Made by a program: the position numbers and the translations under genes
Notes under the pieces: model-generated
Databases searched by the model: none
Told to the model about the DNA's origin: nothing
What the model saw: the letters and a program-made list of their open reading frames with translations, nothing else
Part shown: positions 27,747 through 41,797 of the stretch, piece after piece
Numbering within the stretch: the stretch's first letter is position 1
Layout: each line of letters opens with the position of its first letter
IMG/VR virus record: IMGVR_UViG_3300049893_001204
Span: 1 to 64,000 of that record
Source: a virus
DNA: 64,000 nucleotides
Reading direction: 5' to 3' (one strand)

Positions 27747-27780
27747 CTTGGCAGCTGCAATTCCGCAGTGTAAGTCCAAG
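27747..27780 (+). ncRNA. Family A leader element, copy 1
   Basis: The outer stem CTTGG/CCAAG encloses CA, a bulged G, the upper stem CTGC/GCAG with loop AATTCC, then TG and the unpaired TAAGT. This fits the family pattern in which the outer stem always ends GG/CC and the 3' side carries TGTAAGT. It lies 17 bases before the GTG of the 65-residue gene, closer than in other copies. Confidence 0.65.
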
Positions 27781-27797
27781 CTCACCAGGAGAACATT

Positions 27798-27995
27798 GTG
27801 GACTACACCGTTAACATCATCGAGCTTGACAACAACTACTTCCTTCAGGAAGTTTTTGCTGTCACTGAGTTCCAGTACGTGGAACAGGTGACTGCAGGGC
27901 CGTTTCAGGCTCGATGGCAAGCAGACGTGCAACGTTCTGTTGCTTACCCCGCTTATCGGGGATTAACAGATGAGCATTGCCGTCTGCAACACTGA
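27798..27995 (+). CDS. Early protein (65 aa), unknown
   Basis: The start is GTG 27798 with AGGAGAA in good position, one of few early genes with a clear ribosome-binding site. The product (V/M)DYTVNIIELDNNYFLQEVF is acidic and ends LTDEHCRLQH. It lies between a family-A and a family-D RNA element. No family is recognised. Confidence 0.62.
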   Translation: MDYTVNIIELDNNYFLQEVFAVTEFQYVEQVTAGPFQARWQADVQRSVAYPAYRGLTDEHCRLQH

Positions 27996-28004
27996 GCTGT
28001 AGTA

Positions 28005-28070
28005 CTGCACATCTGTGCAGGGCCAGGTGCAACTCCTGGCCTCAGTTATTGCCTCCAGCGGAGATAGGCA
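28005..28070 (+). ncRNA. Family D leader element, copy 1
   Basis: Three hairpins follow each other. CTGCAC/GTGCAG has loop ATCT. GGCCAGG/CCTGGCC has loop TGCAACT. After the linker TCAGTTATT comes TGCC/GGCA with an inner CTCC/GGAG stem. The middle loop and the linker are nearly identical to copy 2 while the stems differ by compensating changes. It precedes the GTG at 28093. Confidence 0.65.
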
Positions 28071-28092
28071 CCGCACACACACGGAGAAACCC

Positions 28093-28338
28093 GTGAGCAA
28101 CCGCGACCAGCACCACCTTGCTCCGCTCAACGGAGACGGCAACCTCCCAACCAGGGAAGAAGCCGGCGAGTACGTCTTTAACCAGTGCAAGCACTGGATG
28201 GAAGAAGGTCACTCGCAGGTGTTAACCCGCGACCAAGGTCTTCAGATTGCCTGCTGGGCATTGAAGATCGCAGGAGCTCAAGAGCTTCTGACACACGTTA
28301 TTGCAGAGCTTGTTGAGCTTCCCGATAACTACTGCTGA
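28093..28338 (+). CDS. Early protein (81 aa), unknown
   Basis: I start at GTG 28093, which has GGAG nine bases upstream and lies beyond the family-D element; an in-frame ATG at 28015 falls inside that element and is unlikely. The product begins SNRDQHHLAPLNGDG and is helical after residue 15 (EEAGEYVFNQCKHWMEEGHS), ending AELVELPDNYC. Function is unknown. Confidence 0.65.
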   Translation: MSNRDQHHLAPLNGDGNLPTREEAGEYVFNQCKHWMEEGHSQVLTRDQGLQIACWALKIAGAQELLTHVIAELVELPDNYC

Positions 28339-28355
28339 TCCGTAACCAAGCGGGT

Positions 28356-28403
28356 GGGCAGGTGCAAACCCTGCCCCAGTTATTGCCACCCACTGAGGGT
28401 GGC
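28356..28403 (+). ncRNA. Family D leader element, copy 2
   Basis: GGGCAGG/CCTGCCC closes loop TGCAAAC. The linker CAGTTATT follows, then GCCACCC/GGGTGGC with loop ACTGA. The same loop and linker as copy 1 are kept with altered stems. It ends 13 bases before the ATG at 28417. Confidence 0.65.
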
Positions 28404-28416
28404 CTAGCTCAAGTCA

Positions 28417-28626
28417 ATGTCCATGATCAAGAACTGTTTCGTTGTTGTCTTCAACGGCAACGTTGTTGGTATGCATGCAACTGAGGAGGCAGCTGCTCAG
28501 CAAGTATTACAGTTAGCTGAGGAGTGGCAACTTCATGCCGACTGCGGAGCCGAAGTGCCAAAACCAGTATTGGTTGCAATGTCTTTCAATGAATGGATGC
28601 AGCACGAAAGTGTTGTTGTATTCTGA
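28417..28626 (+). CDS. Early protein (69 aa), unknown
   Basis: The product starts MSMIKNCFVVVFNGNVVGMH and looks like a beta-strand-rich N-terminus with a following helix (EEAAAQQVLQLAEEWQLHAD), ending MQHESVVVF. The ATG at 28423 is an alternative start. A family-D element lies upstream and a family-C element downstream. No family is recognised. Confidence 0.68.
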   Translation: MSMIKNCFVVVFNGNVVGMHATEEAAAQQVLQLAEEWQLHADCGAEVPKPVLVAMSFNEWMQHESVVVF

Positions 28627-28639
28627 TTTCTGCATCAAG

Positions 28640-28681
28640 CCCTGAGTAATCAGGGTTTCTTGCAGGACTCAACATCCTGTA
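28640..28681 (+). ncRNA. Family C leader element, copy 1
   Basis: Hairpin 1 (CCCTGA/TCAGGG, loop GTAA) is followed by TTTCT and hairpin 2 (TGCAGGA with TCCTGTA, one G-T pair, loop CTCAACA). A 21-base leader then leads to ATG 28703. The two-hairpin layout recurs three more times downstream. Confidence 0.7.
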
Positions 28682-28702
28682 TCCCACACCTCAAGTCAGT
28701 TC

Positions 28703-28888
28703 ATGACTGCACTCAACATTCGTAAGAACATTGGCGGTCTGCTCCATGCTACTGCATCAGCAGTGGAGCAGATCAAGGTACCTACCAAGCAGCAGCTTAA
28801 TGAGAAGGTAGATGAGTACCGCATTCGTGCGGCTGCACTCATCATGCCTAATGATGCTGCATTTGTTATTCCTGGAGCTAAGAAGTGA
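28703..28888 (+). CDS. Early protein (61 aa), helical
   Basis: The product MTALNIRKNIGGLLHATASA continues as a charged helix (EKVDEYRIRAAALIMPNDAA) and ends VIPGAKK. It has no Shine-Dalgarno sequence and follows a family-C element. Its stop overlaps the GTG of the next gene, so the two are coupled. Confidence 0.65.
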   Translation: MTALNIRKNIGGLLHATASAVEQIKVPTKQQLNEKVDEYRIRAAALIMPNDAAFVIPGAKK

Positions 28889-29091
28889 AGAACGATTTTA
28901 CTGGAGCAGTAGTTGCCATTGCTATTGGCAACGGACTAGGCTTTCTTCTGTCCATTGCTGGACAGAAGATGATCAACAAGCATCAGATAGCTGTATGTCC
29001 GAGCAAACCTAATCATTCACTTGTGATGGTTAGGAGTGTAGTTGGTGACAGCTACTACTGCATTGCTGATAAGTACTTAGACAAGCACTGA
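28885..29091 (+). CDS. Small membrane protein (68 aa)
   Basis: GTG 28885 overlaps the previous stop (GTGA). Residues 7-25 (GAVVAIAIGNGLGFLLSIAG) form one hydrophobic helix, and a polar C-terminus ends CIADKYLDKH. A single-pass membrane protein co-translated with the preceding soluble partner is suggested. Function is unknown. Confidence 0.65.
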   Translation: MKNDFTGAVVAIAIGNGLGFLLSIAGQKMINKHQIAVCPSKPNHSLVMVRSVVGDSYYCIADKYLDKH

Positions 29092-29103
29092 CGTTTGCAC
29101 ATT

Positions 29104-29146
29104 CCCTTGTGGTAACACAAGGGTTTCTGCAGACCTCACGTCTGCA
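29104..29146 (+). ncRNA. Family C leader element, copy 2
   Basis: Hairpin 1 is CCCTTGTG/CACAAGGG with loop GTAA, then TTTC. Hairpin 2 is TGCAGAC/GTCTGCA with the shorter loop CTCAC. Stems differ from copy 1 by compensating substitutions, while GTAA and CTCA are kept. It lies 27 bases before ATG 29174. Confidence 0.7.
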
Positions 29147-29173
29147 CCAATTCAACTCAACCCAACTAGGACT

Positions 29174-29425
29174 ATGTCTCCTGCAAGTGTTGAATATCTG
29201 TTGACCCAAGATGCCAGGTTGCTGGCACGCAGGGATTCAACGCCTGCCCATCCTGCTATCGATGCAGAGATTGAGGACTGCCGTCAGGCAGCACTTGATC
29301 TTTACTTCAAGTGGCAAGATGGGACAGCACAGTTCCAGGAACTTACACCCTTTGTGGTGATCTTGGAGCGCAAGGTTGAATTAAACCGTGCACTCATCAA
29401 GTGGTTGAAGAACCACGAGGATTGA
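29174..29425 (+). CDS. Early protein (83 aa), helical
   Basis: The product MSPASVEYLLTQDARLLARR is all-helical and charged and ends ALIKWLKNHED. It is flanked by family-C elements on both sides. No motif is recognised. Confidence 0.68.
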   Translation: MSPASVEYLLTQDARLLARRDSTPAHPAIDAEIEDCRQAALDLYFKWQDGTAQFQELTPFVVILERKVELNRALIKWLKNHED

Positions 29426-29436
29426 TTCCTGTACTT

Positions 29437-29491
29437 AACCCTACCTATTCCATGTGATAGGTGGGTTTTCTACAGGACTTAACATCCTGTA
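29437..29491 (+). ncRNA. Family C leader element, copy 3
   Basis: Hairpin 1 pairs AACCC and ACCTAT with ATAGGT and GGGTT around an eight-base loop, followed by TTC. Hairpin 2 is a perfect TACAGGA/TCCTGTA with loop CTTAACA. A G-poor leader leads to ATG 29518. Confidence 0.7.
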
Positions 29492-29517
29492 CACCACAGC
29501 ACAACTCAGCACTAAAC

Positions 29518-29916
29518 ATGACTGAAGCCATCAAGAAGTATGCAGACTTCCAGCAAGTCGTCTTTCACGGACGCATTGCATACATGGAAGCTGTCAACTA
29601 TGACGGCAAAGAATTTCTTGCTGTTACGTTGATGCACACGTTGTCTGAGACAACGGATCTACGGATTCGTTTTACGAATGGCAACGGTCTTTTAACTGCC
29701 TACCGCAACGGTAATCTTGTGGTTGGTCAGGAGCTTACCATCAGTGGTAACATCAAGGGCATCCGTGCTTTCTACATGAAAGAGGATGAGCTTGTGCCAC
29801 TGAAGCATCCTGAGCTACAGGTCCGTTGCATGGGTTATGTCTTTGGTTCCAAGCCAGAGCAGAAACCTGAGGCAGTAGCAACAGCTGTGCCAACGCTGGA
29901 AGAAATTCCATTCTGA
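29518..29916 (+). CDS. OB-fold SSB-like protein with EEIPF tail
   Basis: The start is ATG 29518; the longer frame would begin inside the RNA element. The 132-residue product has an OB-fold-like beta pattern (VFHGRIAYMEAVNYDGKEFL; later GQELTISGNIKGIRAFYM) and a disordered linker. It ends TLEEIPF, the acidic Ile/Pro-Phe tip typical of bacterial SSB tails that recruit partner proteins. Single-stranded DNA binding is likely. It would be a second SSB-type protein beside the larger one at 44074. Confidence 0.72.
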   Translation: MTEAIKKYADFQQVVFHGRIAYMEAVNYDGKEFLAVTLMHTLSETTDLRIRFTNGNGLLTAYRNGNLVVGQELTISGNIKGIRAFYMKEDELVPLKHPELQVRCMGYVFGSKPEQKPEAVATAVPTLEEIPF

Positions 29917-29927
29917 TTTCTGCACTA

Positions 29928-29980
29928 AACCCTGCCCATCGTTAGATGGGTGGGTTTTCTGCAGGACTCAACATCCTGCA
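29928..29980 (+). ncRNA. Family C leader element, copy 4
   Basis: Hairpin 1 pairs AACCC and CCCATC with GATGGG and GGGTT around GTTA, then TTC. Hairpin 2 is TGCAGGA/TCCTGCA with loop CTCAACA. Compared with copies 1 and 3, base pairs in hairpin 2 change in a coordinated way. ATG 30006 follows after 25 bases. Confidence 0.7.
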
Positions 29981-30005
29981 AACAGTCTACCCAACATCTC
30001 AACAC

Positions 30006-30269
30006 ATGCGATTATCAATTGATCAACATGATATCGACGAAGCTTGTGCTGAGTTCGGTATTTCTCAAAGCGACTATTACATAACGTGCACATCCAGTGC
30101 AATATATATGCACTGGGTAGCAACACCAGAGCAAATCAAGAAGTATTTTGAAACTGGACATTGTTGTTTATGCATAGATATAGGAGGTGAATGGATAATA
30201 TCTGATGAGGTAGAAGATTACAGAATGCCTAATCGTTTAACTGCATGCCGTTACATTCTTGATGCTTGA
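30006..30269 (+). CDS. Early protein (87 aa), unknown
   Basis: I start at ATG 30006, beyond the family-C element. The product MRLSIDQHDIDEACAEFGIS has a Cys pair in GHCCLCIDIGGEW near residue 52 and ends ACRYILDA. It is acidic and mixed alpha/beta. No family is recognised. Confidence 0.65.
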   Translation: MRLSIDQHDIDEACAEFGISQSDYYITCTSSAIYMHWVATPEQIKKYFETGHCCLCIDIGGEWIISDEVEDYRMPNRLTACRYILDA

Positions 30270-30270
30270 T

Positions 30271-30471
30271 ATGAAACACATAGTTTCACTAGGCAACAAC
30301 CGCTATGTACACCTCGATTCTTATGGTGAGTCTTCTAAGACTCGAGCCGTAAGTCAGGTGATGGTTGTTGCCTTTGCACTTGTCATTGCCTGCATTACAG
30401 TGCCTGCACTGGTAGGCATTGACATTACCAACATCAACTCAACACAGAACCATGACAACATTAAGCGTTAA
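30271..30471 (+). CDS. Small membrane protein (66 aa)
   Basis: ATG 30271 follows the previous stop by one base. The N-terminus is soluble (MKHIVSLGNNRYVHLDSYGE). Residues about 29-50 (QVMVVAFALVIACITVPALV) form one membrane helix. The 3' end overlaps the next gene's start by 20 bases. Function is unknown. Confidence 0.6.
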   Translation: MKHIVSLGNNRYVHLDSYGESSKTRAVSQVMVVAFALVIACITVPALVGIDITNINSTQNHDNIKR

Positions 30472-30802
30472 CACTGCACTAATTGAAGAACGTCTGCAGC
30501 AGCTTATTACTGCACTCATCAAACAGTTTGATGAATACAGCAGACGAAACTATGGACATCCAAGTGATACTCATTACTTGTCCTTTGAGATTGTCAAAGG
30601 TACCAAGTATTACAAGCTCATTATGAGGCAAGGTACTGGTACATCGGTGCATGCATTTATCAGTCGTCAGACTGGTGCCATGTACAAACCAGCTAGCTGG
30701 AAAGCACCTGCCAAGCACGTCCGGTACAATCTGCTGGATGACACATCATTTGCTGAGTGTCTACGCAGAGCTGACTGGGCTGGTGGGTATCTATACCTAT
30801 GA
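30452..30802 (+). CDS. Early protein (116 aa), unknown
   Basis: ATG 30452 lies inside the end of the previous gene. The product MTTLSVNTALIEERLQQLIT has an N-terminal helix, a central beta-like region (TKYYKLIMRQGTGTSVHAFI) and ends DWAGGYLYL. The pattern recalls small phage proteins of mixed fold, but I cannot name a family. Confidence 0.68.
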   Translation: MTTLSVNTALIEERLQQLITALIKQFDEYSRRNYGHPSDTHYLSFEIVKGTKYYKLIMRQGTGTSVHAFISRQTGAMYKPASWKAPAKHVRYNLLDDTSFAECLRRADWAGGYLYL

Positions 30803-30813
30803 GCTTTATCAGT

Positions 30814-30842
30814 ATTCCAGGTAACTAACGTTTACCAGGAAT
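30814..30842 (+). promoter_or_regulatory. Intergenic hairpin
   Basis: ATTCC and GGTAA pair with TTACC and GGAAT around a seven-base loop with one A/A mismatch. It lies between the 116-residue gene and the family-A element at 30853 and has no T-run, so it may be a 3' stabiliser or a processing signal. Confidence 0.5.
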
Positions 30843-30852
30843 CCAACTAACT

Positions 30853-30890
30853 GCTGGGCATCCATGGATATACATGGTGTAAGTCCCAGC
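30853..30890 (+). ncRNA. Family A leader element, copy 2
   Basis: The outer stem is GCTGGG/CCCAGC. After CAT comes the upper stem CCATG/CATGG with loop GATATA, then TG and the TAAGT bulge. The long upper stem distinguishes it from the short copies at 31287 and 38042. It ends 17 bases before ATG 30908. Confidence 0.75.
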
Positions 30891-30907
30891 AAATCACAAC
30901 TCCTCCT

Positions 30908-31285
30908 ATGAAGGGACGCATTTCAATCCTCAAAGAAGATCGCATCTGGCAGCTGAGAACACAAGGTTATTGCTATGACACAATCGCACAGATTGTCAAT
31001 TGCAAACCTGGTTCAGTTCCAGCTGCACTTAAACGTACAAGACAACGTCCACCACTGGCACAAGATCCAGTAAAACGTGGACGTGTACGTGGCTTTCTAT
31101 CTGATGATCAGATCTCTGACATCAGAAAACGCAAAGCACTAGGTGAAACATTACATTCCATTGCAGGTGACTATCACATTGAGATATCATCTGTGTGGAA
31201 TATTGTAACCTACAACTCTTACAAGGAACCATCAGGTGATTCTGGTTACCCATTCAAGTTTGGTAACCGCCTGATGCATGGTTAA
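30908..31285 (+). CDS. DNA-binding protein with two HTH-like segments (125 aa)
   Basis: Two helix-turn-helix-like segments are visible: LRTQGYCYDTIAQIVNCKPG (about residues 16-35) and RKRKALGETLHSIAGDYHIE (about 76-95). A basic linker (KRTRQRPPLAQDPVKRGRVR) joins them. The organisation resembles resolvase or homeodomain-like HTH pairs found in phage regulators and homing-associated proteins, without a nuclease domain. A transcription regulator of the plus-strand block is a reasonable inference. Confidence 0.72.
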   Translation: MKGRISILKEDRIWQLRTQGYCYDTIAQIVNCKPGSVPAALKRTRQRPPLAQDPVKRGRVRGFLSDDQISDIRKRKALGETLHSIAGDYHIEISSVWNIVTYNSYKEPSGDSGYPFKFGNRLMHG

Positions 31286-31286
31286 T

Positions 31287-31318
31287 ACCTGGGCATCCTT
31301 ATGGTGTAAGTCCCAGGT
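31287..31318 (+). ncRNA. Family A leader element, copy 3
   Basis: The outer stem ACCTGGG/CCCAGGT starts one base after the stop of the upstream gene. The upper hairpin is minimal: CC, loop TTAT, GG, followed by TGTAAGT. A 28-base leader leads to ATG 31347. Confidence 0.75.
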
Positions 31319-31346
31319 TGTTTACAACTCACACAAGTTTACTGCA

Positions 31347-31478
31347 ATGGACTCAAATCAATTTGAAAATGACATTCCTTCTGATGCATTAGATGCATTA
31401 GCTGATCTTGCCTATGAGCAAGAAGAAGCAATGAGGGAAGAACTTAACCAACCGGAGGTTTATGATGACCAAACATGA
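31347..31478 (+). CDS. Acidic small protein (43 aa)
   Basis: ATG 31347 gives MDSNQFENDIPSDALDALAD, ending QPEVYDDQT. It is strongly acidic (about one third Asp/Glu), which recalls DNA-mimic or regulator-binding peptides, although that is only a resemblance. It follows a family-A element and overlaps the next start. Confidence 0.6.
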   Translation: MDSNQFENDIPSDALDALADLAYEQEEAMREELNQPEVYDDQT

Positions 31479-31959
31479 CTACACCTTTGAGCAGGCATGG
31501 GATGATGGCGACATCATCATCATTCTGCTCACAATCATTTCACTTATCATCACGGAAATTGGATCATGTCTAGTGCCAAGCACTCAACAGCAACAGCACG
31601 TAAGTGGATTGCTGTCTACAACACATTCAAAGAGTGTGTTGGCAGAGAACCAACCACCATCTGTGTCTACGAATGCAGCACTGCATATGGAGGACCACAA
31701 GAAGGAGGTTGGTACTACGAAACCGGCTGGCCGCTCAAGACGATCTGCGTCTTCTCCAAAAAGCAAGCCATCCGTGAAGCCATCCGAGCGGAAGCGGAAA
31801 CCGAAGAGCAACTTGGTAATCGCAAAGACTATCTCGGATGGAACGCCTGGTGTGTTAACTTCGACGTTGAGTACGCCAAGCCGTACCCAGAAGAACGTCC
31901 TTACTATTGCTGATACCAATGCAAACAATTGGACAGAATCTCACAATCAACCAGCGTAA
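31465..31959 (+). CDS. Membrane-anchored frame overlapping the 115-aa gene
   Basis: ATG 31465 has GGAGG in ideal position. Residues 16-36 (GDIIIILLTIISLIITEIGS) are a hydrophobic helix after an acidic head. From residue 35 on the frame coincides with the 115-residue gene in another frame and becomes Ser/Thr/Lys/Pro-rich, like an overprinted or non-selected sequence. The short membrane peptide is probably real; whether the full 164 residues are functional is uncertain. Confidence 0.45.
   Translation: MTKHDYTFEQAWDDGDIIIILLTIISLIITEIGSCLVPSTQQQQHVSGLLSTTHSKSVLAENQPPSVSTNAALHMEDHKKEVGTTKPAGRSRRSASSPKSKPSVKPSERKRKPKSNLVIAKTISDGTPGVLTSTLSTPSRTQKNVLTIADTNANNWTESHNQPA
31566..31913 (+). CDS. Early protein (115 aa), unknown
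   Basis: The product MSSAKHSTATARKWIAVYNT is compact, with many Trp and Tyr (EGGWYYETGWPLKTICVFSK) and ends YPEERPYYC. It reads as a folded domain with normal codon use. The upstream frame from 31465 covers the same DNA in another phase. No family is recognised. Confidence 0.66.
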   Translation: MSSAKHSTATARKWIAVYNTFKECVGREPTTICVYECSTAYGGPQEGGWYYETGWPLKTICVFSKKQAIREAIRAEAETEEQLGNRKDYLGWNAWCVNFDVEYAKPYPEERPYYC

Positions 31960-32152
31960 TCTATATCTGTATTACTTGAATCATAAGAAGAAGAACAAGA
32001 ATGCCGTATGCTTTGTTCCAAAGATGCCAATGCAATCAACCCGCATGCAAGACTACTTGCGTGCGATAGAAGCTTTAGAAGAGAAGAAGCTTATAGCTGT
32101 GGACAGAAGCTCAGATAATTACACTGGCTGGATCATTCGAGATCCAAAATAA
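31919..32152 (+). CDS. Winged-helix-like small protein (77 aa)
   Basis: ATG 31919 is five bases after the preceding stop. The product MQTIGQNLTINQRNLYLYYL contains MQDYLRAIEALEEKKLIAVD followed by a beta-turn segment (SSDNYTGWIIRDPK). This is the helix, recognition-helix and wing order of many winged-helix DNA-binding proteins. The assignment is tentative, as the core helices are short. Confidence 0.6.
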   Translation: MQTIGQNLTINQRNLYLYYLNHKKKNKNAVCFVPKMPMQSTRMQDYLRAIEALEEKKLIAVDRSSDNYTGWIIRDPK

Positions 32153-32156
32153 TTAC

Positions 32157-32188
32157 CAGGTAATGCCAGATAGATACTGGCCTACCTG
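32157..32188 (+). promoter_or_regulatory. Intergenic hairpin before the 93-aa gene
   Basis: CAGGTA and GCCAG pair with CTGGC and TACCTG around a seven-base loop with a small internal loop. It is followed by a G-poor leader to ATG 32221, matching the leader style of the A-D families although loop sequence differs. Confidence 0.55.
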
Positions 32189-32220
32189 CTACACAACCCA
32201 CTGCTATTTAACACAACACC

Positions 32221-32502
32221 ATGGCATTATCCCTTGAGCAACAACTGATTGGTGATCTGATGGGATACCAGCCCATGACACCAGAAGAAGCTGCAAAACC
32301 AGCGGACACATCACTGTGCAACCGTAAGGTTGAGATGCGTGATGGCTGGCCTCACATCATGTGGCGTAAGGAATGGACTCCAGTTCCAACGATGGAAGAG
32401 TTGGAGGAATGGACGTTTGATTCCGTATGTTTGACACCAGATGAAGATGAGGTGGAACCAGATGATGTACACTCGTGGCTTAGTATTCTTGGTTTAATCT
32501 AA
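32221..32502 (+). CDS. Acidic early protein (93 aa)
   Basis: The product MALSLEQQLIGDLMGYQPMT contains PHIMWRKEWTPVPTMEELEE and ends DVHSWLSILGLI. It is acidic overall. Its stop overlaps the next ATG (TAATG), so it is coupled to the HNH gene, which may be a later insertion. No family is recognised. Confidence 0.66.
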   Translation: MALSLEQQLIGDLMGYQPMTPEEAAKPADTSLCNRKVEMRDGWPHIMWRKEWTPVPTMEELEEWTFDSVCLTPDEDEVEPDDVHSWLSILGLI

Positions 32503-32882
32503 TGCCTTATAAAGATCCGGACAAAAAGCGTGAGTATGATCGCATACGTCGTCAAACTCACAAAGACCAGATCGCCGGTAATAAACGTAAATGGTCAAAT
32601 GAAAATCGTGACAAGGTACGTTTAAGAAGTCAACGGCGACGAAAAGAGGATCCAGATTATTTTAAAAGATATCATGCAAATCAAGACCCTATTAAACGCA
32701 AAGCTAGGCACATGATTACAAATCGTGTGCGATCTGGCAAAATGCCAAGTTGTTCAGTATTTACTTGTGCAGATTGCAACAAGAAAGCTGAACATTACCA
32801 TCATGAATCGTATGAACAATGGTGGGCTGTTGTTGCTTTGTGTCAAGAGTGTCATTACCGTAGACACCAAAAACCAATTTGA
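32502..32882 (+). CDS. HNH endonuclease-like protein (126 aa)
   Basis: The N-terminal 70 residues are very basic (MPYKDPDKKREYDRIRRQTH). The C-terminal zinc-site pattern is CADCNKK, then YHHESY, then CQECHYRRH. This is the CxxC...HH...CxxCHxxxH arrangement of HNH nucleases common in phages. It probably nicks DNA as a free-standing homing endonuclease. It is inserted directly behind the 93-residue gene and lacks its own RNA leader element. Confidence 0.82.
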   Translation: MPYKDPDKKREYDRIRRQTHKDQIAGNKRKWSNENRDKVRLRSQRRRKEDPDYFKRYHANQDPIKRKARHMITNRVRSGKMPSCSVFTCADCNKKAEHYHHESYEQWWAVVALCQECHYRRHQKPI

Positions 32883-32949
32883 TATTAGCAACAACTACGT
32901 GAGCCAGATCATCCGCATAGCTGGCTGCGTATACTGGGCATGATCTAAC

Positions 32950-33000
32950 ACTTAGGCATTCACATTATCACACTAGTGTTATGTGATGTAAGTCCTAAGT
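32950..33000 (+). ncRNA. Family A leader element, copy 4
   Basis: The outer stem is ACTTAGG/CCTAAGT, replacing the CTGGG/CCCAG seen in other copies while keeping all pairs. The upper arm is the longest in the family: TCACAT/ATGTGA with an inner ACAC/GTGT. The fixed parts GGCAT and TGTAAGTCC are unchanged. It is strong evidence for RNA-level conservation. ATG 33028 follows after 27 bases that contain only one G. Confidence 0.8.
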
Positions 33001-33027
33001 ACACAGCTAACACAACACAACAACACC

Positions 33028-33384
33028 ATGGGACGTAGCAAGAAATCTGATGGGCCCTCACCAGATTATCCCCAAGGTCTACACAATGTCACATTTAAAG
33101 ACATTAGCGAAGATGATTGGTGGTTAATCATTCATCTGTTTGAAGGACGCATTGAATACTTTCAACGGAGGTTGAATGACATCATGCAGACTGGAGACCC
33201 TGACTTGATGGATAACACAACTCAGTGGTACAGAGAATCAATTGCACGTCTGACCAAGAGACTAACTGAGTTTGAAGATCAGATTAGTCCTGTTTACTTC
33301 AGACGTAAACGTGCAGAGAAAGCTGCGCGATGCAAGCAGTACAACCTACCTATTGACAAGAACGATCTAACAACTAGAACTTGA
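33028..33384 (+). CDS. Early protein (118 aa), helical
   Basis: The product MGRSKKSDGPSPDYPQGLHN continues with charged helices (WWLIIHLFEGRIEYFQRRLN) and a basic end (KRAEKAARCKQYNLPIDKND). It has no Shine-Dalgarno sequence and lies between two family-A elements. No family is recognised. Confidence 0.68.
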   Translation: MGRSKKSDGPSPDYPQGLHNVTFKDISEDDWWLIIHLFEGRIEYFQRRLNDIMQTGDPDLMDNTTQWYRESIARLTKRLTEFEDQISPVYFRRKRAEKAARCKQYNLPIDKNDLTTRT

Positions 33385-33388
33385 TAAG

Positions 33389-33418
33389 CCTGGGCATCCG
33401 TAAGGTGTAAGTCCCAGG
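33389..33418 (+). ncRNA. Family A leader element, copy 5
   Basis: The outer stem is CCTGGG/CCCAGG; the upper hairpin is CC, loop GTAA, GG; the TAAGT bulge is conserved. It starts four bases after the previous stop and ends 31 bases before ATG 33450. Confidence 0.75.
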
Positions 33419-33449
33419 GTTTACAATCTATTCACAACATAACAACACC

Positions 33450-33776
33450 ATGCCGCAAGATCAACTGCATTTTGAACCAGAGGTATTCCGTTCTTATAAC
33501 GGTAATGAGGTTGTGCTTCAGATGAATGAAGCCAAACGCATTGACCTAATCATCAAAGAACTGCAGGCTATCTATGCAAGAGAGGAGAAACGTAATCACA
33601 TGTACCTGCATTTTCCATATGAAGCACCAGAGCTTTTGTTGGAAGCCATTGAGCTGCTTGAGAAAGCAACTGAGTGGGGTGAACCATCAGATGGTTATCT
33701 GACAGGTGAACCACCACTGACTGCAGATGAAATGCACACAGCAGCATGGAAGCAGCACCAGGAGTTGCACTCATAA
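33450..33776 (+). CDS. Early protein (108 aa), helical
   Basis: The product MPQDQLHFEPEVFRSYNGNE is acidic, with long helices (ELLLEAIELLEKATEWGEPS), and ends AAWKQHQELHS. It is the last gene before a strong terminator at 33807. No family is recognised. Confidence 0.66.
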   Translation: MPQDQLHFEPEVFRSYNGNEVVLQMNEAKRIDLIIKELQAIYAREEKRNHMYLHFPYEAPELLLEAIELLEKATEWGEPSDGYLTGEPPLTADEMHTAAWKQHQELHS

Positions 33777-33806
33777 GTTGAGTAGTATTACTCACAGCAT
33801 GAGTAG

Positions 33807-33857
33807 AGGGTGTACCCCCAGACCCCCAGAGGGTACCAGGGGGGCACCCTTATTTCT
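33807..33857 (+). terminator. Long stem terminator
   Basis: AGGGTG and CCCCC pair with GGGGG and CACCCT over a 19-base loop region, followed by TTATTTCT. It probably ends the transcript containing the 27.8-33.8 kb genes or attenuates it. Confidence 0.75.
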
Positions 33858-33955
33858 ATAAGGTAAACCTATGTATCTAACCATTACACATTAGATACAA
33901 CCCTTGACTACCCTGATAGACTACCCTCGTTCACTCATCTAACTTCACTTCACTT
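33858..33955 (+). promoter_or_regulatory. Possible promoter region after terminator
   Basis: The 98 bases hold a direct repeat of GACTACCCT (in TTGACTACCCT, then AGACTACCCT) and a C/T-rich G-poor leader before ATG 33956. TTGACT could act as a -35 box. The region follows a terminator, so a new promoter is plausible but no clear -10 is seen. Confidence 0.4.
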
Positions 33956-34159
33956 ATGTCTGATCAATTACGTATTCCTGATTCAATAGATAACCAACGA
34001 CTTGCTGCTATGCGTTTAGTTGCTCACCTTAAAGAGCAAGCAGATAAGTCAGGTGTTGGATTCATTGGGGGCTTTATTGCCCCCAATGGAGAAAAGTTTG
34101 TCATGTCCAATATGGATGATGAGGACATGCAGATGTTACTTCCTGATGAACTTCAGTGA
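33956..34159 (+). CDS. Early protein (67 aa)
   Basis: The product MSDQLRIPDSIDNQRLAAMR contains VGFIGGFIAPNGEKFVMSNM and ends QMLLPDELQ. The mixture of an N-terminal helix and a beta-hairpin is compact. It is the first gene behind the 33807 terminator. No family is recognised. Confidence 0.65.
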   Translation: MSDQLRIPDSIDNQRLAAMRLVAHLKEQADKSGVGFIGGFIAPNGEKFVMSNMDDEDMQMLLPDELQ

Positions 34160-34164
34160 CAACC

Positions 34165-34464
34165 ATGACAACTACACACAAACTTATTGAACAAGTCATC
34201 AGCTCTTTCGAATTTGAAAAAGTGTTAATCACTATGCAAGCATTGGATTGGAAATGGAGAGATCCAAATACTAAAGAGATGCATGTACCTACTATTGCTC
34301 GCATGAAAGCAATGGCAACAAACCTGTTGTTCTCATCGATAGAAAACACATGCTGTGGCTCTGGTGGTTTTGAAGCTACATACACAGAACCAACAGAGCA
34401 TGAGCCAGAGTCATTTGAACTCAAGTTTATTGTTACCGAAATGAACACAAATTCCAATGCCTAA
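34165..34464 (+). CDS. Early protein (99 aa)
   Basis: ATG 34165 follows the previous stop by five bases; an in-frame GTG at 34156 is less likely. The product MTTTHKLIEQVISSFEFEKV contains ALDWKWRDPNTKEMHVPTIA and a Cys-Cys-Gly turn (ENTCCGSGGFEATYT), ending VTEMNTNSNA. No family is recognised. It overlaps the DUF4236-like gene. Confidence 0.66.
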   Translation: MTTTHKLIEQVISSFEFEKVLITMQALDWKWRDPNTKEMHVPTIARMKAMATNLLFSSIENTCCGSGGFEATYTEPTEHEPESFELKFIVTEMNTNSNA

Positions 34465-34654
34465 GAAATCATCAATCAATTTCGACAAGACAATCCTGGG
34501 ATTTAACATTACAGAACATGGTGTTAAGTCTTATACCAAGTCGATCAAGCTTGGTCCATTCCAGGTAACATTGAATGCACGTGACTCAGGTGTACGTGCG
34601 TCAGTAGCATTGCCTGGTACAGGATTGTCTAAACGAAACATTAAATTATTCTAA
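34457..34654 (+). CDS. DUF4236-like protein (65 aa)
   Basis: The segment YTKSIKLGPFQVTLNARDSG followed by VRASVALPGTGLSKR matches the DUF4236 pattern (KSIKLGPGxxxNxSxSGxSxSxGxPGxG), a small beta-domain of unknown function common in bacteria and phages. It starts inside the end of the previous gene, and its stop abuts the family-A element at 34655. Confidence 0.65.
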   Translation: MPKKSSINFDKTILGFNITEHGVKSYTKSIKLGPFQVTLNARDSGVRASVALPGTGLSKRNIKLF

Positions 34655-34690
34655 AGATCTGGGCATCCTTACGGTGTAAGTCCCAGGTCT
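34655..34690 (+). ncRNA. Family A leader element, copy 6
   Basis: The outer stem has nine pairs, AGATCTGGG with CCCAGGTCT, one of them a T-G wobble. The upper hairpin is CC, loop TTAC, GG, then TGTAAGT. It begins directly at the stop of the preceding gene and lies 22 bases before ATG 34713. Confidence 0.78.
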
Positions 34691-34712
34691 GTTCACCTAC
34701 CAATTCAATTCC

Positions 34713-34898
34713 ATGGATCAAATCACTTTGTTTGACAGAGTTAATCTTGCTAACTGCGCAATGCGCAGGGCAGAGGAGCATCTCTCAGATGCTGAACGCT
34801 TTACTGCGGAGTTTCAGACGGTACGTGCTTGGACTAAATACCGTTGCAACATCTACAAGTACGACAATCGTATTGTTGCTTACACGGAGTCAAACTGA
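34713..34898 (+). CDS. Early protein (61 aa), helical
   Basis: The product MDQITLFDRVNLANCAMRRA is a charged helical peptide ending YDNRIVAYTESN. Its stop overlaps the next ATG (TGATG). No Shine-Dalgarno sequence is seen. No family is recognised. Confidence 0.62.
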   Translation: MDQITLFDRVNLANCAMRRAEEHLSDAERFTAEFQTVRAWTKYRCNIYKYDNRIVAYTESN

Positions 34899-35161
34899 TG
34901 GCATGCACTGTCCTTGCAATTGAAGAGACTACGATCAATGGATCTGATGTCACAGTTACAGCAATGGTTGAAGACATGCGTCTTCTATACCGTGCAACAT
35001 ATACAGATCCTGAGGAATGGGCTCCTGCATTATGCAGAGCTTCTTTCCAGCTGGCTGATGACGAACAGATTCCTACTGATGAAGATGGCTTCTGCCATTT
35101 CTTGTATCAGTTGGATCTTGAATGGCAACTGGTTGACACATCTGATTGGAGTTTAGACTAA
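34898..35161 (+). CDS. Acidic early protein (87 aa)
   Basis: The start ATG 34898 overlaps the previous stop. The product MACTVLAIEETTINGSDVTV is acidic and beta-rich at the start, and ends QLVDTSDWSLD. It is coupled to the next gene through TAATG. No family is recognised. Confidence 0.65.
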   Translation: MACTVLAIEETTINGSDVTVTAMVEDMRLLYRATYTDPEEWAPALCRASFQLADDEQIPTDEDGFCHFLYQLDLEWQLVDTSDWSLD

Positions 35162-35379
35162 TGCTTGGCTTTTCAATAGAATTCAAACGCTGGTACATTG
35201 TACTGCGTGGCCCCAGGGGTAGGGTTTACCTTGCCACTGGGTTTGCTAAGCAGTTGCCATTTTATGTATCACCAACACAAGCTGCAGCATTCGATGCTGC
35301 AGTAGATGATACACATTGTGCAATACTTGCAGATGAATGGCGTGAAGACGATAATGAAGATGAAGAAATAGAGAACTGA
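35161..35379 (+). CDS. Acidic-tail early protein (72 aa)
   Basis: ATG 35161 overlaps the previous stop. The product starts with a beta-rich segment (MLGFSIEFKRWYIVLRGPRG) and ends in an acidic tail (EWREDDNEDEEIEN). The tail could act in protein binding or nucleic-acid mimicry. No family is recognised. Confidence 0.65.
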   Translation: MLGFSIEFKRWYIVLRGPRGRVYLATGFAKQLPFYVSPTQAAAFDAAVDDTHCAILADEWREDDNEDEEIEN

Positions 35380-35384
35380 TCACA

Positions 35385-35414
35385 CGTCCTAGGTCATGAC
35401 GTTAAACTGACCTA
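35385..35414 (+). ncRNA. Family B leader element, copy 1
   Basis: The tag CGTCC is followed by a perfect seven-pair stem, TAGGTCA with TGACCTA, around the loop TGACGTTAAAC. It starts six bases after a stop codon, and a 26-base leader with no G leads to ATG 35441. Confidence 0.78.
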
Positions 35415-35440
35415 CACTACAAACTCAATCCACACCAACC

Positions 35441-37189
35441 ATGCAATTCCGTCTGCCTGACAATCTGCAAACTGAGCTGCTTGCTTATGACCCAAGCCTT
35501 AAGACATTGGCTAAGCAACAGAAAGCTGCTGCTTCAGCAACTAAGAAGACAACACATCCACTTGGTAACCCATATGATTTAATCCCAGTGGATATTGTAT
35601 CTAAAGATACACTTGCTACTGCAATTGAACGTATTAATCGCATGGCTGCTAAGTTTCGTTATTATGTGTTTAATAGGTTTGAAACAATTGATAACCAACC
35701 TATACAGATTACTTATGCCATTATCTATTACTACGCACAATGTTGGTATGCAGCATGGCTTCCACCTGCTGACCAACGTGATAAGTATGTATATGGTTAT
35801 CGATATGCATTCAAGAATACTGAGGCTGCACGCAAAGCTATGTCGCATGCAGTAAAAGGTAAGATAGATCAACATCAAGAAATTAAGTATGGTCGCTCAA
35901 CCTTTTACATTTATGGTGAGACGGTTACCTTAGAGCAGATCAAGACAACACCATCAAACGAACTGCAATACGGATGGAACCTAGCTGGTGTGCCAACGTA
36001 TTACCAAAAGTCTGGTGAGATGCGACGCGCTTGTATCAATGAATTCTACAAGTCATTGTCATTGTTTATACCTACGTGGCAAGATAGCCGTGAAATCTTT
36101 GAGCGTGTTCGTAATCAACATTGCATTGCATCATTGTTGATTAGTTATTCAGACCTTAACATTTCCTATTGGGATACAGTTGACAAGAATACTTGGGTAC
36201 CATCACATGAATCATTGCTTAACTTGATTGACTACAATGTAATCTATGCAGAAAACCTGGGTTATAGCAGAGGCTATGAGTATAAAAGATTACACAAGAT
36301 CAAGCACATTATTAATACACCATTCTTTAAGAAATGGATAGAAGAACAATGTGCATTAGTTATGACGCGTATTAACGATAGTTCAATTACAGATTCAAAG
36401 CTAGTTGCTGCGCCATGGAAAACAATCATTGCTTTGTTGACTGCAATATATGGCATTCATAGTGTATGGGATGACTGTCCTATTGATTACTATCAATCAC
36501 ATATGTCTGCATTGATTGCTAGTGGTAATTGTTTTTCATACGCAAGTAACCTAGTTCAGAAGTGGTTGAAAGATAACATGCCTGTTGCATCATTCTTTAA
36601 GATAGTTGAGAAGTCATACGTTAAAGAATTAGCAGGCAATATGTATTTTGATAGAGATATTCAACATCACACGTATCGTTTGCATGAATGGCGTGACACT
36701 ATGAACATGCTAACTAATATACTTAACAAGCAAGATACATTTGATCCGCCTAGCCGCTGGCGTATTGAAGAGTTCCATGACCATGTGCAATCAACTGCAT
36801 GGAAACTAAACAATGAGAACCAATCATTACCACAAGATTTGTTTCCAACACCAATTAAGATTTCACTTGGTGAATCAACATGGACATTCTTCCAGCCCAT
36901 TGATACACATCAACTTGCAGCTTGGGGCCAGGCCGTACGTAACTGCGTTGGCTCTGCATCAGGCTATGCAGAAGGTGTACGCAAGAAGAAACATTTCATT
37001 GTACTGTGCATGATTGATAACAAGCCTGTGTTTACCATCCAGCTAGATGTCAACAATGGCGTCATGAATGTTAATCAAATTAAGGGGGTATCCAACACAT
37101 CACTTAAACCTGAACAACAAGAATTGTATACAACTGCATTCAGTCAGGCATTGAAAGCCAGGGATGCTGAGCTAGCATCTAAGAGCTGA
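35441..37189 (+). CDS. PcfJ-like protein (582 aa)
   Basis: The C-terminal 90 residues contain AWGQAVRNCVGSASGYAEGV, then KPVFTIQLDVNNGVMNVNQI and KGVSNTSLKPEQQ. This matches the PcfJ pattern (hCvg..Y, T.el....i.Q..G..N.....e) found on conjugative plasmids and in some phages. The role is unknown. The N-terminal 480 residues are Tyr/Trp-rich and not recognised. It follows a family-B element, and a terminator directly follows its stop. Confidence 0.75.
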   Translation: MQFRLPDNLQTELLAYDPSLKTLAKQQKAAASATKKTTHPLGNPYDLIPVDIVSKDTLATAIERINRMAAKFRYYVFNRFETIDNQPIQITYAIIYYYAQCWYAAWLPPADQRDKYVYGYRYAFKNTEAARKAMSHAVKGKIDQHQEIKYGRSTFYIYGETVTLEQIKTTPSNELQYGWNLAGVPTYYQKSGEMRRACINEFYKSLSLFIPTWQDSREIFERVRNQHCIASLLISYSDLNISYWDTVDKNTWVPSHESLLNLIDYNVIYAENLGYSRGYEYKRLHKIKHIINTPFFKKWIEEQCALVMTRINDSSITDSKLVAAPWKTIIALLTAIYGIHSVWDDCPIDYYQSHMSALIASGNCFSYASNLVQKWLKDNMPVASFFKIVEKSYVKELAGNMYFDRDIQHHTYRLHEWRDTMNMLTNILNKQDTFDPPSRWRIEEFHDHVQSTAWKLNNENQSLPQDLFPTPIKISLGESTWTFFQPIDTHQLAAWGQAVRNCVGSASGYAEGVRKKKHFIVLCMIDNKPVFTIQLDVNNGVMNVNQIKGVSNTSLKPEQQELYTTAFSQALKARDAELASKS

Positions 37190-37198
37190 AGCCACAGC

Positions 37199-37237
37199 AA
37201 GGCCATCGTATGCTTGGCATAGGTGGCCTTTTCTTTC
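37199..37237 (+). terminator. Terminator abutting the next start codon
   Basis: AAGGCCA and TATGC pair with GCATA and TGGCCTT around TTG, followed by TTCTTTC and immediately ATG 37238. It would end the PcfJ-like transcript or act as a leader hairpin of the next gene, since translation would start right beside it. Confidence 0.75.
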
Positions 37238-37477
37238 ATGCCTGACTACACTGATGAACAGCTGCTTGCCATGGCAATGGCAAACATTGGTGAATACATT
37301 CATGATCACTCACCACACTATGTACTGATTGAAGATCCTCGTAATGAGGATGACTATGATACATGGGATTATGGTACTGAGCCATTACCTCATGATCACA
37401 CTTGGCATTCAACTGCAATCACAGTTGATGTAAGTCCAAGTGATGCCGGCGTAGCCCAATCGGAAGAAGGCAAGTGA
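37238..37477 (+). CDS. Acidic protein whose 3' end runs into a tRNA
   Basis: The product MPDYTDEQLLAMAMANIGEY is strongly acidic in the middle (EDPRNEDDYDTWDYGTEPLP). Its last 26 codons lie within the family-A element at 37399 and the first 33 bases of the tRNA-Leu gene. The reading frame probably lost an earlier stop, or the RNA features invaded its 3' end. Residues up to about 52 look like genuine protein; the tail VDVSPSDAGVAQSEEGK is likely incidental. Confidence 0.5.
   Translation: MPDYTDEQLLAMAMANIGEYIHDHSPHYVLIEDPRNEDDYDTWDYGTEPLPHDHTWHSTAITVDVSPSDAGVAQSEEGK
37399..37442 (+). ncRNA. Family A element, copy 7, directly before tRNA-Leu
   Basis: The outer stem CACTTGG/CCAAGTG and upper stem TCAACTG/CAGTTGA with loop CAATCA are both perfect; GGCAT and TGTAAGTCC are conserved. 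It ends two bases before the tRNA acceptor stem, the only copy placed before an RNA gene, which favours a processing role. Confidence 0.78.
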
Positions 37478-37519
37478 CTTAAAATCACTCAAGTACGAGT
37501 TCGAATCTCGTCGCCGGCA
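37445..37519 (+). tRNA. tRNA-Leu (anticodon TAA) with short variable loop
   Basis: The acceptor stem GCCGGCG/CGCCGGC is perfect. The D-arm has GCC/GGC. The anticodon stem AGTGA/TCACT closes loop CTTAAAA with anticodon TAA (decodes TTA). The T-arm ACGAG/CTCGT closes TTCGAAT. The discriminator is A, and no CCA is encoded in the DNA. The variable region between anticodon and T arms is only CAAGT, five bases, whereas bacterial tRNA-Leu normally has a long variable arm. The identity is read from the anticodon. Confidence 0.85.
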
Positions 37520-37531
37520 GTCTTTCTTTTT

Positions 37532-38038
37532 ATGTTTATGAGCCAAGCTAAAGCTGCTTTAATACAAGCTTATGAAAAAGGTTATCGAGTTAAAGATAAC
37601 GTTGTTTATGGGATTGTTAAAAAGCAACCATTAAAACTCAGTTGCTCTAAGTCTGGCTATCTATTTTTTAATGTAAAGTTTGGTTCAAAAACAGTTAAAG
37701 TATTTCTGCATCGTTTAGTTGCATATGAAAAGTATCAAGACAAATTGCTTGAGCCGGGTATCTTGGTTCGACATTTAAACGGCAATAGCAAAGATAATTC
37801 ATTTGGAAATATTTGCATTGGAACTCAAACTGAAAACATGTTAGATAGAAGTCCGGAAGAACGTTTGAATCATGCTATTAAGGCATCTAGTTCTATACGT
37901 AAATTTACAAATGAGAAAGTAAATCAAATTAAACTTGACCATTCAAATGGTTTAGGTTATAAAGCTTTAATGGAAAAGTATGGCATTACTTCTAAAGGAA
38001 CCTTGCATTATATTCTTACTCATGAATATGTAACGTAA
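37532..38038 (+). CDS. HNH homing endonuclease-like protein (168 aa)
   Basis: Residues about 62-115 include VFLHRLVAYEKYQ, then RHLNGNSKDNSFGNICIGTQ and TENML. This is the HNH_3-type H...N...N pattern of free-standing phage homing nucleases. The C-terminal 50 residues look like a helix-turn-helix DNA-binding tail (LGYKALMEKYGITSKGTLHY). It lies 12 bases after tRNA-Leu. ATG 37538 is an alternative start. Codon use is more AT-rich than its neighbours, consistent with mobility. Confidence 0.82.
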   Translation: MFMSQAKAALIQAYEKGYRVKDNVVYGIVKKQPLKLSCSKSGYLFFNVKFGSKTVKVFLHRLVAYEKYQDKLLEPGILVRHLNGNSKDNSFGNICIGTQTENMLDRSPEERLNHAIKASSSIRKFTNEKVNQIKLDHSNGLGYKALMEKYGITSKGTLHYILTHEYVT

Positions 38039-38041
38039 ACA

Positions 38042-38069
38042 CTGGGCATCCTTATGGTGTAAGTCCCAG
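38042..38069 (+). ncRNA. Family A leader element, copy 8
   Basis: The outer stem is CTGGG/CCCAG, the upper hairpin CC, loop TTAT, GG, then TGTAAGT. It starts four bases after the HNH stop. The leader to ATG 38099 is A/C-rich with two Gs. Confidence 0.75.
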
Positions 38070-38098: not shown

Positions 38099-38461
38099 AT
38101 GTCAATTTTTGCTTGCTTTAAGTACATCATTCCTGAGTTCCATGCCTTCAGTGATGAAGACAAGCGCTACAACGTAGGTGCGACATGGACTGCACAAGAT
38201 GGACTTAAGGATTACCACAACATTGAGTTGCGGTACGTCCACAACTCAGAACGTCTTGCGCTCCAAGGTGATCCACAACCTGATGGCAGCTGGCGTTATG
38301 TAGAACCCAATGGCAATGTCCATACCATCTCAGCTGATCGAGCTAAACACTTTATGGAGCAGACACAGTTGCATGCCACCATCATGGTTGAGATGCTAGA
38401 CAAGCTTAAGGAATCTGGTACAGGGCAGCCGCCCATTGACACTAGTGTCCAGCCTGCTTAA
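38099..38461 (+). CDS. Early protein (120 aa)
   Basis: The product MSIFACFKYIIPEFHAFSDE contains RYVHNSERLALQGDPQPDGS, a beta-like middle, and a helical C-terminus ending PPIDTSVQPA. It follows family-A copy 8 and is closed by an intrinsic terminator. No family is recognised. Confidence 0.68.
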   Translation: MSIFACFKYIIPEFHAFSDEDKRYNVGATWTAQDGLKDYHNIELRYVHNSERLALQGDPQPDGSWRYVEPNGNVHTISADRAKHFMEQTQLHATIMVEMLDKLKESGTGQPPIDTSVQPA

Positions 38462-40141: not shown

Positions 40142-40833
40142 TCATGAATGTCAAGTTGATCTGGGTAACCCCCAACGCAGAGGAGCTAATTACTTATATG
40201 GCACGTGTCAGTGCCCCAAAAAATCAGGAGAATATGGAGACTGCTCCTAAGTTGTTGCGTTATTTAATTCAACATAAGCATTGGTCTCCTTATGAGATGG
40301 CTAACATGTGTGTTGAAATTAACACAACCCGTGCAATATCTGCACAGATTATTAGACATCGCTCATTTAGTTTCCAGGAGTTTAGTGCTCGCTATGCAGA
40401 TGTCAGTGAACTAGGTTCTGCTGTCATCCCACACTTGCGTAGACAAGATCATAAGAACAGACAAAATAGTATTGATGATTTAGATACAGAGATGGTTGGT
40501 AGTTATTACCGACGTATCAGTCAACTTTTTGAGGATGCTGAACATCTCTATCGTGAGATGATAAGCACTGGTGTTGCTAAAGAGTGCGCCAGGAACATTC
40601 TGCCAATGGCAGCTCAGACTAGAATCTATATGCAAGGATCCTTGCGGTCATGGATCCATTACTTACAGCTACGTTGTGACAACGGAACTCAAGCAGAACA
40701 CCGACAAATTGCAGAAGAAATCAAACGAATCTTCTGTCAACAATTCCCAGTCACTGGAGAAGTTGCCTTCTCAGGAGAAGACAACACAACGCAACCACCT
40801 GAGGAACAACGCATTAGTCGTTTGTTTTTCTAA
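40138..40833 (+). CDS. thyX: Flavin-dependent thymidylate synthase ThyX
   Basis: The 231-residue protein carries the ThyX signature RHRSFSFQEFSARY (RHRxxSxxxxSxRY) at residues 73-86. It makes dTMP from dUMP using methylene-tetrahydrofolate, FAD and NADPH. Further family features are the N-terminal segment PYEMANMCVEINTTRAISAQ and a C-terminal Arg-rich region. Length is normal. Phages use it to boost dTTP supply. It overlaps the preceding gene by four bases; ATG 40144 is an alternative start. Confidence 0.95.
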   Translation: MIMNVKLIWVTPNAEELITYMARVSAPKNQENMETAPKLLRYLIQHKHWSPYEMANMCVEINTTRAISAQIIRHRSFSFQEFSARYADVSELGSAVIPHLRRQDHKNRQNSIDDLDTEMVGSYYRRISQLFEDAEHLYREMISTGVAKECARNILPMAAQTRIYMQGSLRSWIHYLQLRCDNGTQAEHRQIAEEIKRIFCQQFPVTGEVAFSGEDNTTQPPEEQRISRLFF

Positions 40834-41008: not shown

Positions 41009-41797
41009 ATGAAACTTCTTAAGTTTTCTACTGGGAACGGCAAGCTCAAGAATCGTTTGATCTTTTCGTTGCCAGCGGGTTATGCATGCCCACATGCTGG
41101 TGTATGCAAGACCTTTGCAGATCGTGTCACAGGTAACATTACTGACTTACCTCAGCACACTGGTACTACAGCGGATGAGTTCCGCTGCTTTGCTGCAATG
41201 GCAGAGACTAGGCCAACCGTACGTGATGCACGTTGGCATAACTGGGATCTGCTGCGTAATACCATCCATCTCAATGGCAATCAGTCAATGCTGATGCGTG
41301 ATCTGATTGACATGTCGTTGTTGATGGAACCAGAGAAGGAACTTGTACGCATCCATGAGAGTGGTGACTTCTGGATTGAAACCTACATGCGTGCATGGGC
41401 AATGGTTGCAGCACAGCGACCTAAGCAGAAGTTCTATGCCTATACCAAGTCTCTTGGCATGTGGTTGAACTTACGTGATCAGCTGCCATCTAACTTCTAT
41501 CTCACTGCATCTTACGGTGGTACGCTTGACTATCTCTTGCCAAAGTATCCAGATGTGTTCAAGCGTATTGCTTATGTGGTATACACAGAAGATGAAGCTA
41601 AAGAGCGTGGTCTAGAGATTGACCATGACGACAGCCATTGCTTTGGCAACAAGCCGTTTGCACTCCTTGTGCATGGCAGCCAACGCGCTGGATCAGACGC
41701 CATGAAAGCTTTGTCTCAACGTAAGAAAGACAAGGGATTCGTTGGGTACGGTAAAACATTCCAAAAAGAATCCGTACCTATTAACGTCTTTGCTTAG
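41009..41797 (+). CDS. GP88-like phage protein (262 aa)
   Basis: The start is ATG 41009, beyond the family-B element. The N-terminal part, NGKLKNRLIFSLPAGYACPH followed by AGVCKTFAD and FRCFAAMAE, matches the mycobacteriophage gene product 88 family (NaKL...FSLPAG.SCP.A..C......RCyA). Further conserved parts are RIHESGDFW and KFYAYTKS. The family's role is unknown; its conserved Cys and His suggest metal binding. Confidence 0.8.
   Translation: MKLLKFSTGNGKLKNRLIFSLPAGYACPHAGVCKTFADRVTGNITDLPQHTGTTADEFRCFAAMAETRPTVRDARWHNWDLLRNTIHLNGNQSMLMRDLIDMSLLMEPEKELVRIHESGDFWIETYMRAWAMVAAQRPKQKFYAYTKSLGMWLNLRDQLPSNFYLTASYGGTLDYLLPKYPDVFKRIAYVVYTEDEAKERGLEIDHDDSHCFGNKPFALLVHGSQRAGSDAMKALSQRKKDKGFVGYGKTFQKESVPINVFA

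Follow-up and report, generated by a model that had tools for sequence, protein, structure and literature searches.

Within a 64,000-nucleotide stretch of viral DNA (the window; positions 1 to 64,000 of IMG/VR record IMGVR_UViG_3300049893_001204), we found eight copies of a small, previously undescribed RNA hairpin, here called element A. Both of its helices covary, and it is nearly always placed at a seam between RNA units, i.e. between two genes, between a gene and a tRNA, or between a gene and a guide RNA. This placement suggests that element A flags the points at which viral RNAs are cut or begin. It is probably an RNA-processing module, a "cut here" mark that stands in for a tRNA, with cleavage as the step that we infer.

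The original prediction had listed eight elements, seven before start codons and one before tRNA-Leu, and all of them were present as described. The pattern GGCAN{4,34}TGTAAGTCC matches the window eight times, always on the plus strand, where 0.05 matches are expected, and no further match occurs in the whole 77,678-base record. The first copy (27747..27780) pairs CTTGG with CCAAG, has a G bulge and a 4-bp upper stem, and is followed by a GTG start at 27798. Downstream of the second (30852..30891; TGCTGGG/CCCAGCA) is an ATG at 30908, while the third (31287..31318; ACCTGGG/CCCAGGT) has the stop of the ORF at 30908-31285 1 nt upstream and an ATG at 31347 downstream. The fourth (32950..33000; ACTTAGG/CCTAAGT) carries a long upper helix and is flanked by an upstream HNH-like ORF (32502-32882) and a downstream ATG at 33028. 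The fifth (33389..33418) comes 4 nt after the stop of the ORF at 33028-33384 and precedes an ATG at 33450, and the sixth (34655..34690; AGATCTGGG/CCCAGGTCT) abuts the stop of the ORF at 34457-34654, ahead of an ATG at 34713. Only 2 nt separate the seventh copy (37399..37442) from the first base of tRNA-Leu(UAA) (37445..37519, plus strand). Between this tRNA and the gene starting at 38099 (gene 38099; 38099..38461, plus strand) lies an HNH endonuclease-like ORF (37532..38038, plus strand), and the eighth copy (38042..38069) has the stop of this ORF 3 nt upstream and the ATG at 38099 downstream.

All eight copies were recovered by a covariance model (E 2e-12 to 1e-4), with E-values that are rough and a model of 47 elements that includes some of the window's own short copies. 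The record itself, 77.7 kb in length, is related to Synechococcus phage S-EIV1, with a terminase that is 81.5% identical. In line with the original view that the pattern belongs to no known RNA class, a search of Rfam 15 returned no family at any of the eight elements, even with E up to 10, and the Rfam models of the hammerhead and other known self-cleaving ribozyme cores gave no match in element A. In the literature, the core sequence was without mention in a relevant context.

Unbiased scans define the core as a helix, C-A-K opposite N-R-UAAG-N, and a second helix. With the helices fixed and the bulge left free at 3-8 nt, we obtained UAAGU 58 times, UAAGC 21 times, UAAGG twice and one unrelated sequence; of the fixed TAAGT bulge claimed originally, UAAG is kept, but the last base varies. 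With the bulge fixed instead, the free 5' side read CA in 76 cases, CG in 4 and CT in 3, and the 3' side read TG (64), CG (7), AG (6) or TA (6). Given this 3'-side variation, CA/UG, the A/U neighbors, are not strict pairs. A T-loop reading (UGUAA) was dropped, since the unbiased scan showed U, C and A at position U1.

The claim that paired bases change together holds also when search bias is removed. When the outer arms and the core were the sole fixed parts of the search, so that the upper region was free, the upper helix reached 3.07 consecutive pairs on average, compared to 1.03 with swapped 3' arms and a maximum of 1.35 in 500 shuffles. For the outer stem, the search was restricted to GGG/CCC plus the inner two upper pairs, and in the loci so obtained outer pairs 4, 5 and 6 formed at frequencies of 0.95, 0.89 and 0.62, each above all 500 shuffles, while the same test gave no excess over shuffles beyond pair 6. 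In the 47-sequence alignment, 57 cells had changed on both sides versus 19.8 when shuffled (0 of 500 shuffles as high), a signal that was lost when partners were slid; as this alignment is partly ascertained, the arm-swap and outer-pair tests on free regions are the cleaner ones. The conserved RNA structure that had been predicted is thus borne out in both stems. Most of the window copies fold as expected, with modest z-scores of -0.4 to -3.7 that are unremarkable for some.

The upper helix spans from 2 to more than 10 pairs, and the short forms consist of 5-7 outer pairs, CA/UG and two upper pairs. The RNase III sites of T7 are likewise intergenic phage hairpins with two helices and an asymmetric internal loop. 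An RNase III site calls for a near-continuous duplex of ~20 bp, however, and the short forms of element A have too few pairs for this (~9-11 in total); their loop sequence is, moreover, fixed.

Nor is element A peculiar to the window phage, on which the original prediction was based. A strict pattern, GGGCATCC-n2..12-GGTGTAAGTCCC, was found in at least 119 IMG/VR stretches, which belong to several phage groups without relationship to each other, and copies within one record nearly all share a strand. The loci were gathered by pattern scans, by which rare core variants are under-sampled, and near-duplicates in IMG/VR with similar flanks were removed for the counts called non-redundant. Among the carriers are relatives of S-CBWM1/S-TIM5, a T5-like group and a pelagiphage-like contig, with hosts assigned from the nearest relatives only. 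A distribution restricted to cyanophages was rejected, since the latter two also carry the element. Related phages have it at the same junctions, a point on which the claim of a conserved element could have failed. S-EIV1 (KJ410740) has two copies according to the covariance model (41437-41477 and 40727-40786; E 1e-7 to 7e-7) and one further UAAGC variant, short BLAST queries gave nothing convincing in other cultured phages, and S-CBWM1 itself is without element A. In 84,980 bacterial and archaeal genomes the strict pattern matched three times against a chance estimate of ~5 for 20 defined bases in this amount of sequence, i.e. element A occurs in cellular genomes at chance level only. Together with its covarying stems, this sets it apart from REP/BIME, which are bulged hairpins found after stop codons inside operons, as is element A, but which have sequence-conserved stems and are host-encoded.

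Between genes, element A starts 0-9 nt past the upstream stop codon, with the core mostly 4-6 nt from the stop, and the upstream genes belong to more than 20 unrelated families. In phages related to that of the window, the next start codon is usually found 22-32 nt downstream, with a G-poor leader in between. Leaders of this G-poor, CA-rich kind also precede genes without element A in S-EIV1-like phages; the 5-nt periodicity of CUCAA leaders was therefore rejected as a part of the element and treated as a general leader feature. Sixteen elements end 1-4 nt ahead of a tRNA as called by ARAGORN (15 Leu, 1 Asn). The name leader RNA, used in the original prediction, is hence appropriate before start codons but too narrow, as the element also stands ahead of tRNAs and of the guide RNAs (vrRNAs) treated below.

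A position directly behind stop codons and ahead of G-poor leaders would also suit a hairpin that is never cut, and that either shields RNA ends arising at other sites or stops ribosomes or exonucleases at the junction. REP-type 3' stabilisers have a comparable placement. We regard such a stabilising or insulating role as rather unlikely, since plain stability has no need for an invariant UAAG loop and leaves both the 1-4 nt spacing to tRNAs and the register with vrRNA pentamers unexplained.

Another alternative is that the conserved entity is DNA, in the form of a promoter or of a site at which homing endonucleases or recombination act. Several copies do lie directly behind HNH or GIY-YIG-like ORFs, and homing genes appear to favor the position immediately 5' of element A, as exemplified by the two HNH ORFs of the window, but HNH genes are absent at most copies. 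Upstream of 169 non-redundant sites we found no promoter motif (at most 0.21 bit), neither a -10/-35 motif nor other conserved DNA. The lack of conserved upstream sequence combined with the covarying stems disfavors a promoter, and with variable arm lengths and nearly all copies of a record on one strand, a DNA element of any kind is highly improbable.

Two further observations concern capsid genes. At one capsid junction (L077, position 1105), a GIY-YIG-like ORF is situated directly upstream of element A. In a class of loci from S-CBWM1/S-TIM5-like contigs (L025, L029, L037, L047 and others), the major capsid gene has element A ahead of it, and directly behind element A comes another covarying hairpin (TGGTT..AACCA, TGTGT..ACACA), in which UUUGAAGWC is conserved.

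Exchange between element A and tRNAs was tested at the conserved junction upstream of gene 38099. Among 43 loci with homologs of this gene, element A was the nearest upstream element 12 times and a tRNA 25 times. These proportions are not population frequencies, as the loci were fetched for carrying element A somewhere, and it is the occurrence of the exchange that counts. Element A is accordingly a tRNA-equivalent in the sense of occupying the same junction. The distances to the start are similar, mostly 23-30 nt for element A and 14-23 nt for the tRNA; in nine of the 25 tRNA loci, element A is found on the far side of the tRNA. The order in the window is tRNA, HNH ORF, element A and gene 38099. 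In S-EIV1, no tRNA was found ahead of the homolog of gene 38099, and the UAAGC variant of element A stands directly before the gene. For the gene at 34713, 26 of 28 homologous loci have element A as the closest element to the start.

A similar alternation was seen with another hairpin, motif D, which precedes the same genes as element A in other loci (loci with element A/motif D: gene 41012, 8/8; gene 44074, 7/9; gene 35441, 7/20). Motif D, present in the window at ~35386-35412, ~40985, ~44045 and ~45225, consists of a hairpin with the loop CYKRGYAU followed by UUAAACUG, and its stems also vary together between phages (CGTC/GACG, GGAC/GTCC, TGTC/GACA).

Polycistronic transcripts are punctuated by tRNAs in mitochondria and in phage tRNA operons, and the tRNA ends are cut by RNase P and RNase Z. 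Element A resembles such punctuation by being located at gene boundaries and by holding the same junction as tRNA-Leu before one gene, but it is not a tRNA: it is ~28-50 nt long and has two helices with a UAAGN bulge.

Of the three roles originally offered, RNA processing fits best, whereas a protein-binding site fits poorly with copies before tRNAs and before each vrRNA of an array, and put-like antitermination with one copy per unit and with the exchange with tRNAs. The put antiterminators of lambdoid phages are RNA hairpins with a fixed bulge and variable stems, which is also true of element A, and a put-like element would modify RNA polymerase during its own transcription. In its favor, the element of G-rich VIPR loci precedes a long non-coding stretch, and strong hairpins lie in this stretch ahead of the following genes. 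A put site, however, is expected in one or two copies near the start of an operon, acting on downstream terminators. Element A is a single hairpin with many internal copies, up to eight within ~10 kb, located directly ahead of tRNAs and vrRNAs and swapping with tRNAs, all of which makes this role very unlikely.

The third setting of element A is that of VIPR guide RNAs. According to a 2026 preprint (PMC13142463), the phage RAMP protein Vipr goes with vrRNAs in which 9-16 GGY/NN repeats are followed by a 3' tail; some of the arrays are hammerhead-interspersed, and related consensus forms are mentioned. Element A is found 0-2 nt ahead of most well-bounded vrRNA repeat tracts, among loci that were all fetched for element A and that therefore give the probability of vipr given A, not that of A given vipr. 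In a G-rich group of 17 non-redundant sequences, identity in the region following the element was 0.54, 0.55 and 0.54 at lags 5, 10 and 15 (z ~+17), and element A mostly comes 0-5 nt after the stop of a gene of the phrog_4652 family. The AlphaFold model of the phrog_4652 protein (pLDDT 89) was matched by Foldseek to Csm3/Cas7 RAMP subunits in PDB (best E 4e-6), and relatives in cultured Felix O1-like, Gordonia, Mycobacterium and Pseudomonas phages adjoin non-coding pentameric tracts. We equate this combination with the VIPR system of the preprint, and by their architecture and neighbor gene, the pentameric tracts beside this family are identified as putative VIPR vrRNAs.

Tandem vrRNA-like units were furthermore found in seven marine loci (L204, L229 at 2912-3640, L233, L236, L242, L243 and L246). 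Each unit comprises a single element A, a pentameric tract of 49-114 nt with the consensus YTTNN rather than GGYNN, and a tail hairpin (GYCTGTACTTAACAGRC), with 9-11 nt from the tail to the next element A. Tract length equals 4 mod 5 in 11 of 14 tracts, some of which are related and thus not fully independent, and this places the edge of element A in register with the pentamers.

VIPR is nevertheless only one setting. No vipr homolog was found in the window phage or in S-EIV1, and none of the eight window copies is followed by a vrRNA pentamer tract, from which we conclude that element A is not a part of VIPR as such. The vipr neighborhoods of five cultured phages are also without it. Other boundary structures take its place elsewhere: in two actinophage vipr loci (L302, 2870-3250; L304, 3640-4030), tRNA-like acceptor/T-arm minihelices (e.g. 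GCTCGG..GGTGGGGTTCGACTCCTCACCCGAGC), which received no Rfam call, lie between the pentamer tracts. In the arrays described in PMC13142463, hammerheads have the slot between vrRNA units that element A has here, although element A lacks a hammerhead core and is also found before mRNAs and tRNAs. That other VIPR units are separated by hammerheads or by tRNA-like minihelices favors processing as the function of element A. The supplement of the same preprint may already show the element.

In each of the three settings, the 3' edge of element A coincides with or shortly precedes the start of an RNA unit, and a tRNA can take the place of the element; processing is the simplest common function. On a long phage transcript, the element would fold into a two-helix hairpin with the asymmetric loop CAK / NRUAAGN and mark a division point, in the simplest case by a cut at or near its 3' edge. 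Made before a gene, such a cut would yield an mRNA whose leader is short, G-poor and unstructured; made before a tRNA, a precursor within a few bases of the mature 5' end; and made in a VIPR array, a vrRNA beginning at its repeat tract. The element would thereby replace a tRNA, or the hammerhead of other VIPR arrays, as the boundary. Against this, a protective or protein-binding hairpin that is not cut would look much alike if placed at the same seams. The conserved unpaired bases are, moreover, few for a ribozyme, and the upper helix differs widely in length, which no nuclease known to us measures.

Binding by a regulatory protein of phage or host, for translation control or as a regulon tag, would agree with a fixed loop between free helices, which is typical of protein sites, and with the fairly constant distance to the start codon in leaders. 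It is less easily reconciled with copies ahead of untranslated tRNAs and vrRNAs, the downstream genes are unrelated, and four unrelated carriers (the window phage, G022, G029 and G030) have no protein family in common except in part ThyX, as judged by blastp at 1e-4, which misses distant or very small proteins, in records that are perhaps incomplete. We consider a regulatory protein site quite unlikely. For the processing module, a phage-encoded partner in all carriers was rejected on the same comparison. With no phage partner apparent, a host enzyme or self-cleavage is left, and the cutter would be a widely conserved host nuclease or the RNA itself.

In a bolder version of the processing reading, unrelated phages would all employ element A to have their mRNAs, tRNAs and VIPR guide RNAs cut, with the element acting as a self-cleaving ribozyme of a new, very small class or being recognized by a single nuclease that is widely conserved. 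This we find unlikely.

Element A is an undescribed structured RNA, present in more than 100 viral sequences, that is tied to VIPR guide-RNA arrays and would join the short list of phage transcript dividers. Since the cultured phage S-EIV1 has copies, cleavage is directly testable, and a confirmed cut would make the element a minimal (~28-nt) RNA-processing tag.

Additional structured RNAs were noticed in the window. A second leader hairpin family (~28640-28690, 29100-29140, 29440-29490 and 29930-29985) is situated ~25 nt ahead of start codons and consists of a terminator-like hairpin ending in GGGTTTYT, followed by a short hairpin with the loop CUYAACA (e.g. GCAGGACTCAACATCCTGC). Lastly, the minus strand at 56999-57035 matches the Rfam abiF RNA with 52.2 bits, above the gathering score, here in a phage genome.
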